This document shows, in pieces, positions 741 through 25,282 of a stretch of DNA of 28,713 bases. The notes under the pieces were generated by a model. The model saw only the letters and a list, made by a program, of their open reading frames with translations. It was not told the DNA's origin and searched no databases. The translations under genes and the position numbers were made by a program. Each line of letters starts with the position of its first letter. Position 1 is the first letter of the stretch. The stretch lies in IMG/VR virus record IMGVR_UViG_3300013104_000067, positions 1-28,713 of that record; one strand, given 5' to 3'. Origin of the DNA: a virus.

Positions 741-1327
741 GGCTTCTCGCACTCCTCAATGTAGGCGTTCAGCTGGTCACGGAGGAACGCCGCTTCCTTG
801 GCCCTGCAACGCCTGTCAAAACTGTTGATGGGGATAGGTCCGGCGTCGATCAGCCACTGCAGCGGTTGCAGCAGCCAGCGCGGATTGAACGGAAGCCTGC
901 TGCGCGGATCTACCGGCGGCGCCAGCGGCACGCAGTCAGGGCCGGCCCAGTCTTCGGGGTCGCCACACACGGTGCAGGTGCGGTTCTGGAACACGTGCTC
1001 CTTCTCCGGCTGCGGCACGCGCGGCTTTTCGAACAGAGCGCGAATGACCAGGCCACGCTGCGGGCCGTAGTAGACCTGTTCGGCGTTCGCTTCGGCCCAG
1101 CAGCCCGGCGCGAAGTCGTCCGCGTGGCGGTACTCCCAGCGGGCAACGTGAGCCGAGTAAAGCTCGGCCATCAGGGTGTTGGCCCAGGCGCGGACCTGGT
1201 CGGCGGAGACAGGGCCGCCAGCCGGATCGATCCGACGCATGGCGGCGACCACCGCGGCCGCCGGCGACGATGCCTTGGTGGCGTCGACCACCGCAGCCGG
1301 GTTGGCGGGGAAGCGGGGCGTGTTCAT
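737..1327 (-). CDS. Hypothetical phage protein with a possible Cys cluster
   Basis: A 196-aa protein of no family I can name. The start at 1327 is chosen over an upstream in-frame start at 1345 because it has a GGAG ribosome binding site 5 nt away and forms an ATGA overlap with the methyltransferase stop. The N-terminal half is Ala-rich and helical. The middle contains CTVCGDPEDWAGPDC, a possible single metal site. The last 30 residues (RRCRAKEAAFLRDQLNAYIEEC) look helical. It is translationally coupled on both sides in the leftward operon and so is probably an early phage accessory function. Confidence 0.65.
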   Translation of the reverse strand: MNTPRFPANPAAVVDATKASSPAAAVVAAMRRIDPAGGPVSADQVRAWANTLMAELYSAHVARWEYRHADDFAPGCWAEANAEQVYYGPQRGLVIRALFEKPRVPQPEKEHVFQNRTCTVCGDPEDWAGPDCVPLAPPVDPRSRLPFNPRWLLQPLQWLIDAGPIPINSFDRRCRAKEAAFLRDQLNAYIEECEKP

Positions 1328-2310
1328 AGGAGCTCCGGGTGGCAATCCATGTAGGCGCCGATCACTTCCGCCGCGACTTCCGGGACGATTGCATTGCCGT
1401 AGGCGCGCAGGCGTCCCACTCGGGCAGGAACCCCATGAGCCAGCAGACGAATGCTGGGTTCAACGCGCCTGGCTTTTCCGTCGTGGCCGATGACCCATCC
1501 GGCTCCATCCCAATGGCTACGCTCGACAGATACAGCCCGTGCCGGCCATCGAGCTGCGAGGGCGGGATCTTGGTCGTGCGGTTTTCGTTGGCCGATGCTC
1601 TCGGCGTTGGGTACAGAGCAAGTGCGTGCGCACGGATCGCTACCAGCCCCGCCGAGTTGCCCGCCTCGTTGTTGCCATTCTTTGCTGGGGCCAGGGAGGT
1701 AGGGGTGGGCCACAATGCCGCTACCTGGTCCGCCAGGCCCACCTGCGGATCGGAGGGCTTCCGGCCTTCCAGCTTCACCACGTTCGACTTCGCATCCACC
1801 ACGTGCGCGTTCGGTGTGCGCCACAAACCACAGGCGATCCCTTCGGTGGGGCGCGTCGACGGCACAAGCTGGGACAACGACCGCCCGGCAGGCGTAGTCC
1901 TCTGCTTCCAGGTCAGCAGACACTCCGTCGAGCCAGTTCTTGCCAACCGCCGCCGCAACCTGTTCTCCCATGACGACAGCGGGCCGTCGGGCACGGATGA
2001 GGCGAAGGAAGTGGGGCCACAGGTGCCGATCGTCATCCTGGGCTTTTCCTTTACCCGCGACGGAGAACGGCTGGCACGGGGCGCTGCCGGTCCAGAGCTC
2101 GCGGTCGTCGGGCCACCCAGCAAGTCGAGCTGCAAGGGACCAACCGGCGATGCCGGCGAAGAAATGGCACTGCCGGTATCCGGCGAGGTCTGAGGGTTGA
2201 ACATCGGTGATGCTCCTGGTGTCGACGTGGCCGGGCGGGATCAGCCCGGCATCGATGAGGTTGCGGATCCACTGCGCGGCGTATGAATCCCATTCGCTGT
2301 AGTAATTCAC
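1324..2310 (-). CDS. Orphan DNA (cytosine-5-)-methyltransferase
   Basis: It methylates cytosine in DNA using S-adenosylmethionine. The proposed 328-aa protein shows the C5-MTase motifs in order: CHFFAGIAGWSLAARLAGW (SAM-binding motif I), TGSAPCQPFSVAGKG (motif IV, catalytic Cys in PCQ), HLWPHFLRLI..RPAVVMGEQV (motif VI, with E in EQV), HRRDRLWFVA (motif VIII) and RLRAYGNAIVPEVAAEVIGAY (motifs IX-X). A long Gly-rich region between VIII and IX would be the target-recognition part. The GTG at 2310, just before NYYSEWDS, matches where relatives begin; an in-frame GTG at 2382 would overlap the neighbouring rightward gene. No restriction endonuclease is adjacent, so it is probably for self-protection against host restriction. 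Most of its length is overprinted by another frame (1362-2204). Confidence 0.9.
   Translation of the reverse strand: MNYYSEWDSYAAQWIRNLIDAGLIPPGHVDTRSITDVQPSDLAGYRQCHFFAGIAGWSLAARLAGWPDDRELWTGSAPCQPFSVAGKGKAQDDDRHLWPHFLRLIRARRPAVVMGEQVAAAVGKNWLDGVSADLEAEDYACRAVVVPACAVDAPHRRDRLWFVAHTERARGGCEVERGEAGRPEALRSAGGPGGPGSGIVAHPYLPGPSKEWQQRGGQLGGAGSDPCARTCSVPNAESIGQRKPHDQDPALAARWPARAVSVERSHWDGAGWVIGHDGKARRVEPSIRLLAHGVPARVGRLRAYGNAIVPEVAAEVIGAYMDCHPELL
1362..2204 (-). CDS. Overprinted reading frame inside the methyltransferase gene
   Basis: A 280-aa frame lies on the same strand as the methyltransferase but in a different phase. It starts at the ATG at 2204 with AGGAG 8 nt upstream, a better ribosome binding site than the methyltransferase itself shows. 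The protein begins MFNPQTSPD and contains STECLLTWKQRTTPAGRS, ALWPTPTSLAP and ALYPTPRAS repeats, and LNPAFVCWLMGFLPEWDACA near the end. From memory, proteins with LTWK..TPxGRS, WPTP and LNPxFxxWLMGxPxEW motifs are widespread in phages, always close to such methyltransferases, sometimes labelled as methyltransferase or hypothetical. Function is unknown. It may be a true second product, or it may be conserved only because the overlapping enzyme is. Confidence 0.5.
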   Translation of the reverse strand: MFNPQTSPDTGSAISSPASPVGPLQLDLLGGPTTASSGPAAPRASRSPSRVKEKPRMTIGTCGPTSFASSVPDGPLSSWENRLRRRLARTGSTECLLTWKQRTTPAGRSLSQLVPSTRPTEGIACGLWRTPNAHVVDAKSNVVKLEGRKPSDPQVGLADQVAALWPTPTSLAPAKNGNNEAGNSAGLVAIRAHALALYPTPRASANENRTTKIPPSQLDGRHGLYLSSVAIGMEPDGSSATTEKPGALNPAFVCWLMGFLPEWDACAPTAMQSSRKSRRK

Positions 2311-2372
2311 CCGACTATCGCTCACCGGCAGAACATGTGAGCATCGGCCGAATCTCAAGCAAGGAATGCGGT

Positions 2373-2861
2373 ATGAACCCACAGCAAGAAGAGGCGCAGC
2401 GTGCGAAGGCGTACAAGCGGATAAAGACTATTTGCGACGGACTCCTCGCTGTAATGTCCCTCGCTGGTGGTCCGGCGATTGTCTTGCTTGCATTCGACCC
2501 CGCGACAAAATTTGTGCCGCACGCCTCGTCTGCGGTCGTGCTTTTCACGCTGATAGTGGCGGGCGGGGTTCTGCCGATGATCCCAGTGGTATCTTTCGCA
2601 GTGAGCGCTTTTCCAAAAGCACTGGGAAAAGCGGATGGTGTGTGGCGCACCATTTTCATCTTCGTGATGGGCTTGGTTTGTTTCGCTGTAAACGATTTTG
2701 CATATGACTGGCACACAAAACGGACTGAAGACGCTATTGCCACTACCCAAAGAATCGAAGATGGGAAACGCGCCCAGTCGGCTGCGGATAAGGAAGAGCT
2801 TCGTGCATTGATCGAAGGGGCAGTAGCGGAGAAATGCGGACCTTCAAGAACAGCGCCGTAG
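2373..2861 (+). CDS. Three-pass membrane protein, probable inserted accessory gene (moron)
   Basis: A 162-aa protein that I do not recognise. The ATG at 2373 has AAGGA 8 nt upstream; an earlier in-frame start at 2283 would run deep into the methyltransferase gene. Hydrophobic segments lie at about residues 22-44, 52-76 and 88-104, after a charged N terminus (QQEEAQRAKAYKRIK). The C-terminal 50 residues are charged, probably coiled and cytoplasmic. It is the only rightward gene in the leftward operon and is visibly lower in GC than its flanks. It separates the methyltransferase from what seems to be a truncated leftward gene. This fits an independently expressed accessory gene acting in the host envelope, but exclusion or conversion is only a guess. 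Confidence 0.7.
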   Translation: MNPQQEEAQRAKAYKRIKTICDGLLAVMSLAGGPAIVLLAFDPATKFVPHASSAVVLFTLIVAGGVLPMIPVVSFAVSAFPKALGKADGVWRTIFIFVMGLVCFAVNDFAYDWHTKRTEDAIATTQRIEDGKRAQSAADKEELRALIEGAVAEKCGPSRTAP

Positions 2862-23314: not shown

Positions 23315-25282
23315 ATGGCTGACACGTTCGGGCGCTTCGCAGCGCTCCCCATTGGACCCCTGCTCGCAGCTCGCGACGGAGGGCTTACTCTCGCAACTAC
23401 CGCAGCCGCCGACGCGCGCAGGTGCGCGCGGTCCGACTTCGCGCTCACGAGCGGAACCGTGGGCGTCGAGTTCGCCGCGTGGGGTGATGACGATCTGGCG
23501 GCAGTAGTCGGGTTTGTGAACGATTCCGCGCCGCTCAACGAGCCGTTAGGCTCCAACGGTGCCGGTATCGGGTGGGAGCTGGCGACCGGTCGGCTAGTGC
23601 AAGGGATCGGCGCGATTGCCACTGGCCTGCCGACGGTGGCCAAGGGCGATATTGTCGGGCTGCGTGTGGTGTTTGGTGGCCCGTCTCGCCTGCAGCTCTA
23701 CCTAAACGAGGCGATGGTTCATCAGCGGGATTTGCTGCTGGCGGGGCCGCTCTACTTTGCGGCGTCTCTCTCGGCCACGAAAGCGGGTGGCCTGTGCCTG
23801 GCGGTCAACGCCGGGCAGTGGGGGGCGCGCAGTGATGCAGCGATTGCCGGGTGGCGGCTGGATCAGGCACAAGCCGCTGCCACTCGCCTTGCCGATGCCG
23901 ACTGGCTTTCGGCACCGGGCGATAGCCCCGCAAATGCCCGCTACGAAGGGTTGGTGGCCGAGGGCGTGAACCTGGTGCAGGAATTGAGTTTCTGGCCGTG
24001 GGGAGGTGACCCCGTATCGCAAACGGCAGCTGCTGAGTGCGTGGTGGCTGATGCCGACGGCATGCTTGACGGTCTCGCGCTCTCGGGCGGCTCGGGTGCC
24101 TCGGTACAGATCCTGCTGGTTGATGAAACCGCCATGCTCGCCGACGCGGCGCCGGTGTTCCGTTGCGCAATCGATCAGATCGAGATCAACGACGACGGCA
24201 GCAAGACCCTCCATCTGCGGGACGCGCACGACTATCTGGCCCAGCCCATCAACCGCGGCGTCTTCCTGCCCAATGTCGCGTCTCTGGCATGGAAGCCGCA
24301 GCCGGTCGTGATCGGCGCCGTGGCGAGCGTGCCGGCCGCCGGCGGCAATTCGGATGCCACCTCCATGTTCCTGGCCGATGGCCCGGTCTACGTCGATGCG
24401 GTTATGGATCGCGGCGACCTGATGGAACCGGGGACGTTTGAAGTTGCGCCGGATCACCAGCAACTGCTGATGAAGTCTCCACCGGTGACGCCTGTGGTGG
24501 TGGACCTGTCCAGCGTGGGGGCCGGAATGGCGCCCGCAACGCTGTCTGCAGCCGTCGCCGAGATCATGGGGCGGTTGGGCATGGGGGCATGGTCTGCGGT
24601 CGACTGCGCAGCGATCGACGCCGCTACCGGCTATGCGGGGGTCGGGTACTACGCAGGGACCTCGATTACCGGCCGCGATGCACTCAACGCGATCTTGCCC
24701 AGCTATGGAGCCGGGTGCTACCAGGATGCCACGGGCGTGCTGCGCTTCGTTCGGGTAGTGGCGCCCGAGAGCTACGAGGGCCTGCCGGCGTTCGAGCTGA
24801 CCGACGACGATTTGGCCAGCGACTTGGTGGGCGTACCTGACGAAGCTCCCAATCTGACCCGCCGCATGGCCTACAGGCCGAATGCCCAGGCCTTGGGTGC
24901 GTCGGACCTGGTCACCGACGTGGTCGACGTTCCGCAGGCGCGGCGTGACGAACTGACTGCCTTGTATCGCGGCCAGGTGTTCGCGGCTGGGCCGCTGGAC
25001 GCTCACTACCGCCGGGCCGAGGCAGCAGATCCGGTGATCTCGCTGTTCTGGCGGGCCGCCGACGCGCAGGCCGAAATCGACCGGGTTGTGGCGATCTACC
25101 AGCGGCAGCGCTTCTTCTACCAGGTCACCGTCCGCGGCGATCAGCAGCTTGCGCCGCTGCCCGGGCAGATTGGCCGGCTGTCCTACGGCCGTTACGGCCT
25201 GGCCGACGGGAAACCGGTGATGGTGCGCCGAGTCGAGCGAAACCCAGCCACGGGTGATGTGGTGCTGACCTTGTGGGGATGA
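23315..25282 (+). CDS. Large tail protein with N-terminal lectin/SPRY-like region
   Basis: A 655-aa protein that I cannot assign to a named family. Residues about 1-195 look like a beta-sandwich; KGDIVGLRVVFGGPSRLQLYLNEAMVH and LYFAASLSATKAGGLCLAVNAGQW resemble SPRY/concanavalin-like domains. Residues about 210-330 are beta-rich (QTAAAECVVADADGMLDGLAL). The C-terminal 300 residues (DVVDVPQARRDELTALYRGQVF..., QRFFYQVTVRGDQQLAPLPGQIGRLSYG) look like a tail hub or baseplate module. It lies between the GT chaperone and the tape measure, where siphophages usually have nothing. A role at the tail tip or in host binding is inferred. Confidence 0.75.
   Translation: MADTFGRFAALPIGPLLAARDGGLTLATTAAADARRCARSDFALTSGTVGVEFAAWGDDDLAAVVGFVNDSAPLNEPLGSNGAGIGWELATGRLVQGIGAIATGLPTVAKGDIVGLRVVFGGPSRLQLYLNEAMVHQRDLLLAGPLYFAASLSATKAGGLCLAVNAGQWGARSDAAIAGWRLDQAQAAATRLADADWLSAPGDSPANARYEGLVAEGVNLVQELSFWPWGGDPVSQTAAAECVVADADGMLDGLALSGGSGASVQILLVDETAMLADAAPVFRCAIDQIEINDDGSKTLHLRDAHDYLAQPINRGVFLPNVASLAWKPQPVVIGAVASVPAAGGNSDATSMFLADGPVYVDAVMDRGDLMEPGTFEVAPDHQQLLMKSPPVTPVVVDLSSVGAGMAPATLSAAVAEIMGRLGMGAWSAVDCAAIDAATGYAGVGYYAGTSITGRDALNAILPSYGAGCYQDATGVLRFVRVVAPESYEGLPAFELTDDDLASDLVGVPDEAPNLTRRMAYRPNAQALGASDLVTDVVDVPQARRDELTALYRGQVFAAGPLDAHYRRAEAADPVISLFWRAADAQAEIDRVVAIYQRQRFFYQVTVRGDQQLAPLPGQIGRLSYGRYGLADGKPVMVRRVERNPATGDVVLTLWG

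Follow-up and report, generated by a model that had tools for sequence, protein, structure and literature searches.

Long overlaps between genes on the same strand are usually explained by the birth of a new, unrelated protein inside an older gene. In the methyltransferase (MT) M.EcoHK31I, the beta gene is reported by Lee, Kam and Shaw (1995) to be contained within alpha in a different reading frame, with both proteins being needed for the enzyme. The conserved motifs of M.EcoHK31I are divided between its chains, with motif IX standing alone on the small polypeptide and the large subunit bearing motifs I-VIII and X without IX (PMC3404938). M.AquI (CYCGRG) is a two-subunit cytosine-5 MT that is split in the variable region, with the small subunit comprising motifs IX and X (PMC3404938). 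Here we describe a phage locus that very probably specifies a two-subunit cytosine-5 DNA MT from two overlapping reading frames of one mRNA. A literature search for any description of the nested phage gene at this locus found none.

The locus was recovered from the IMG/VR viral record IMGVR_UViG_3300013104_000067, of which positions 1 to 28,713 constitute the window, i.e. the whole 28,713-nucleotide stretch of DNA analysed here. At the start of the window a tRNA-Ser gene (72-161, +) is adjoined by the gene for an excisionase-like protein (227-442, -), which together suggest a prophage end. Farther along, a 655-aa protein (23315-25282, +) matches PHROG 8917 (5e-131), a family of unknown function. 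The features of the MT locus are as follows:

1324..2382, minus strand: MT (alpha) ORF, a cytosine-5 DNA methyltransferase, 352 aa as listed
1362..2204, minus strand: nested gene (beta), 280 codons with an ATG start, in the +1 frame inside the MT ORF
2213..2217, minus strand: AGGAG ribosome-binding site of the nested gene, 8 nt 5' of the nested ATG
2202..2204, minus strand: nested ATG, overlapping the MT Asp codon GAT
2062..2079, minus strand: MT catalytic motif IV, PCQPFS, in invariant alignment columns and aligned with M.HhaI
1834..1854, minus strand: MT motif VIII, APHRRDR, from alignment conservation
1845..1982, minus strand: nested residues 75-120, a predicted helix and beta hairpin (LTWK..TPxGRS), from AF2 and nested-frame constraint
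1500..1829, minus strand: variable region, with W/YPTP repeats in the nested frame and a low-complexity, predicted disordered linker in the MT frame
1416..1463, minus strand: nested motif IX-like segment LNPAFVCWLMGFLPEW, conserved and similar to M.HhaI KLHPRECARVMGYPDSY
1381..1413, minus strand: MT motif X, RLRAYGNAIVP, in invariant columns, immediately 3' of the nested motif IX

The MT more likely starts at the GTG at 2310 (giving 328 aa) than at the listed position, because the starts of its relatives fall near YYNE. In the register of the two frames, MT codon position 3 coincides with nested position 2, and MT position 1 with the nested wobble position.

The MT matches PHROG 363 (7.9e-80) and, over only profile positions 61-163 of 324, PF00145 (4.8e-18). 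It carries motifs I-VIII and X, including the PCQ of motif IV and the motif VIII that mark the PF00145 catalytic domain. The chain lacks a canonical motif IX and a folded small domain, which typify the usual monomeric form without being required for membership in that catalytic-domain family. Its AF2 model is confident for the catalytic domain (residues 24-192) and for the motif X end, and residues 197-272 (pLDDT <50) are predicted to be disordered; the large domain aligns to M.HhaI over 175 residues (Z 17.4, 2.4 A). The nested protein matches PHROG 1008 (1.1e-23) over residues 43-271. Modelled alone, it yields the helix and hairpin of residues 75-120, with pLDDT block means of 82-92 over residues 81-120, and two C-terminal helices at 250-266, the remainder being unconfident and the whole-protein pTM 0.30. 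Its C-terminus, LNPxxxxWLMGxPxEW, shows the spacing of the canonical motif IX seen in M.HhaI and in other canonical MTs (LTPRECARLMGFPDTF). Against a profile of canonical MTs this segment scores weakly (median 1.7 bits versus -3.6 for shuffled sequences), though still above the shuffled, reversed and other-frame controls. The number of W/LPTP units differs between relatives, a variability that would suit target recognition. Searching PDB sequences with the nested profile gave no match, and Foldseek with the low-confidence nested model gave no significant one; Pfam, NCBIfam and PADLOC hold no family for the nested protein.

The strongest evidence for the identity of the nested protein comes from sequence comparison with distant actinophage MT relatives. 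The single-chain ShiLan gp70 has the LPTP repeats and LAPAFSEWMMGWPAGW in the MT frame, with motif VIII before them and motif X after. The MT frame of Gordonia phage Camerico and of mycobacteriophage-like loci (L418, L425) stops past motif VIII, and a +1 gene there holds the hairpin, the repeats, motif IX and also motif X. A profile of the nested protein detects these separate +1 genes over positions 128-298 (E to 3e-12; L421, E 3.3e-12) and the in-frame part of the single-chain MTs over positions 165-298 (E to 2e-12), including residues 255-404 of one such MT (L394, E 2.6e-10). Repeat regions may inflate part of these matches; nevertheless, two short matches comprise motif IX alone (24-25 bits; L501, 24.9 bits), so that the homology does not rest on the repeats only. 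A regular-expression census over fetched, redundant loci, the counts of which are consequently not frequencies, placed motif IX in the +1 frame and X in frame 0 (nested) at 285 loci, both in the +1 frame with an earlier end of the MT frame (split) at 10, and both in frame 0 at 31, with 126 unresolved and 2 others. Three loci (L484, L487 and L394) that have motif IX in the MT frame nonetheless retain an overlapping +1 ORF, which encodes the hairpin and LPTP repeats. As the same repeats and motif IX occur in actinophage MTs, whether fused or split, the nested protein would represent a detached TRD/motif IX part. The single-chain nature of canonical MTs favours the fused state as the deepest ancestor.

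We therefore take the nested protein to be, most likely, the MT small domain in detached form, a beta subunit that would be needed for methylation. We propose that alpha and beta would both be translated from one mRNA, with beta using its own AGGAG and ATG. Beta would then supply the target-recognition/small-domain region (helix-hairpin and W/LPTP repeats) and the motif IX that alpha is missing, and the two would assemble in trans into one MT, in which the repeats may contribute to specificity. The enzyme would methylate phage DNA, presumably as a protection against host restriction, with a likely benefit to the phage. A sequence-only reading of this DNA had supposed that the overlap encodes two unrelated proteins, a view left unsupported by the match of the nested protein to the small-domain/motif IX part of single-chain relatives. 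It had also offered two roles for the product, of which that of an MT partner probably stands, while nothing points to anti-restriction. That the nested protein is instead a separate accessory, either an MT regulator or an anti-restriction factor outside the catalytic fold, appears unlikely. Obligate association with the MT is what any partner would show, the AF2 model of the nested protein lacks a compact fold, and the only names given by annotators are 'Mte8-like' and 'internal gene'; but such an accessory would not account for single-chain actinophage MTs holding the same repeats and motif IX in frame, or for an alpha chain that by itself lacks a folded small domain.

The overlapping two-frame arrangement is widely distributed. 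Searches with tblastn using the nested protein recovered matches in 194 phage records and 7 plasmids, bearing out the recurrence in phages that the first reading had noted. We assembled 256 loci from viral contigs, GTDB genomes and annotated records, chosen mainly by nested-frame similarity; at 246 of these both frames are intact in the same +1 phase, and among all 256 no nested protein was found without an accompanying MT. The fairer count, from loci selected by the MT only, gave the nested frame in 80 of 80, always in phase +1. Breaks in either frame are few among relatives, to which the phase is common. In four loci (L143, L176, L250, L252) an in-frame stop interrupts the MT frame and leaves the nested one open, which may point to a sequencing error or to alpha beginning to decay. 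The genome loci come from hosts that include Proteobacteria, Acidobacteria, Verrucomicrobia, Planctomycetes and Nitrospira, and phage records extend the range to Paenibacillus and Lacticaseibacillus. Both genes are annotated in PhiXhv-5, K1ind2 ('Mte8-like'), fTaEco03 and Diva ('g49 internal gene'), and the MT alone in many other records. In phage N15, the methylase gene (gene 58, L085) has a nested frame in this phase as well, which is missing from its annotation. In Paracoccus phage, the annotated gene for the MT Pyei1_p05, which has tested homologues, is much longer, at 2,022 bases.

The nested start signals are conserved beyond the needs of the MT protein. The MT Arg codon within the AGGAG site is the rare AGG in 30 of 79 relatives versus 6.7% elsewhere (p=1.5e-15), and the MT Asp codon at the nested start is GAT, which yields the ATG, in 63 of 73 versus 38% elsewhere (p=1.7e-17); these p-values assume independent relatives and are too small, though the sequences are diverse. 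An alternative nested start at residue 57 was rejected, with ATG being present there in just 21 of 84 relatives and the residue-1 start being conserved. Programmed ribosomal frameshifting, which would yield the second frame as an alpha-beta fusion without the use of its own start, would be in keeping with the continuity of both frames over about 840 bases and with the existence of single-chain relatives; we consider it very improbable given this conservation of a dedicated ATG and AGGAG.

Several lines of evidence establish that the nested frame is coding. Across the nested ORF of Diva (GC 47%), R9.1 (48%) and N15 (52%) there are zero +1 stops, with many outside it, and the +2 frame over the same ORF has 20-26 stops. 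When MT codons were shuffled synonymously, the real +1 frame exceeded the shuffle mean length in 94 of 94 loci. It reached p<0.01 in 34 of these, whereas the +2 frame did so in 1 and the three antisense frames in 4, 0 and 0. Canonical MTs, used as a negative control, have open +1 stretches of just 31-202 aa. Frame-specific substitution was estimated as nested-frame dN/dS with the MT class held fixed, over 38 disjoint pairs. Nested residues 1-55, with NN/NS of 0.97, show no second-frame constraint. The ratio falls to 0.66 (0.59-0.75) for residues 56-130, where SN/SS is 0.41, and to 0.51 (0.42-0.65) for residues 239-280, where SN/SS is 0.32. In the intervening residues 131-238, NN/NS is 0.71 and the MT-frame NN/SN is 0.83, i.e. 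nearly unconstrained, so that constraint seems to be stronger on the nested frame in this stretch, where the alignment is uncertain. The nested frame is therefore under purifying selection from about residue 56 to its end, with ratios of 0.5-0.7. The other alternative frame, +2, gives about 1.1-1.2, denoting an absence of purifying selection, and control MTs without a nested gene give 0.90 and 0.83. Divergence at MT position 3 drops from 0.27 upstream to 0.10 across nested residues 51-100, and the order of divergence at positions 1 and 3 flips near nested residues 90-97, 162-173, 194-200 and 250-257, which are constrained segments.

These observations confirm a real second coding gene. The initial proposal of a gene overprinted in the cytosine MT gene is upheld by the conserved phase, the stop counts and dN/dS, as are the particulars given with it: an AGGAG at good spacing, which is conserved in relatives, and a protein with LTWK..TPxGRS, WPTP repeats and a PEW motif, all of which are present. 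Constraint confined to the MT frame or frequent stops in the second had been named as evidence against it; both frames proved to be constrained and stops to be rare. That the nested frame is an untranslated shadow ORF, kept open by high GC and MT conservation, is scarcely credible: high GC does lengthen alternative frames, a 284-aa antisense ORF (1339-2193, +) is also open in the window and the first 55 nested residues lack constraint, but only the +1 frame has a dN/dS below 1, that frame is stop-free even at 47-52% GC, its SD and start are conserved and canonical MTs are devoid of it, with stop counts, shuffles and substitution ratios together rejecting GC content as the cause. The antisense ORF itself was set aside as a chance occurrence (p=0.005 versus shuffles in the window), which relatives do not keep open.

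Unlike in the usual explanation of long overlaps, the overlapped product here appears to be part of the same enzyme, and the survival of fused, split and nested states in relatives allows the origin of such an overlap to be studied stepwise. On balance we lean towards a broader picture of an ancient and widespread overprinted enzyme, whose catalytic and recognition halves would occupy two frames in phages and prophages that number in the hundreds and span several bacterial phyla. Its motif IX would have moved between frames, leaving the three surviving states, and the beta repeats would set specificity, with the alpha linker left to drift under almost no selection. Records with a single phage cytosine MT, e.g. 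N15 gp58, probably list one of two subunits, and recombinant assays that use one recoded gene could consequently fail. PHROG 1008 and the Mte8-like proteins also gain a likely function.

Among annotated proteins, the PHROG 1008/'Mte8-like' products of coliphages K1ind2 and K1H and the 'g49 internal gene' of Paenibacillus phage Diva are similar to the nested protein and occupy the same nested position, though these records offer names only, without function or mechanism. The single-chain actinophage MTs ShiLan gp70 and JKSyngboy gp4 have the same motif IX segment, in ShiLan along with in-frame LPTP repeats; they differ from the window in carrying motif IX in the MT frame, and the overlapping +1 ORF, which retains the hairpin and repeats, is shorter. 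Like M.AquI, the window enzyme would be a cytosine-5 MT split in the variable region, but M.AquI has both IX and X on its small subunit and its genes are not described as nested (PMC3404938); the actinophage split form (L398, L418, L425) is closer to M.AquI than the window is. M.EcoHK31I (YGGCCR) is part of a restriction-modification system, whereas the window enzyme is an orphan phage MT, and no EcoHK31I-like restriction-modification locus was found in the plasmids or E. coli searched. Moreover, the TRD of M.EcoHK31I is assigned to alpha, whereas in the window it is beta that has the hairpin and repeats, the middle of alpha being predicted as disordered. On the small chain, the window segment agrees with motif IX in pattern and position and is in the MT frame in actinophages, with a low score against the canonical motif IX profile. 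Nonetheless, M.EcoHK31I is the closest known case: as in that enzyme, the large subunit of the window has motifs I-VIII and X without IX, and the small gene is nested in the large one in a different frame, as Lee, Kam and Shaw (1995) are reported to have described for M.EcoHK31I.
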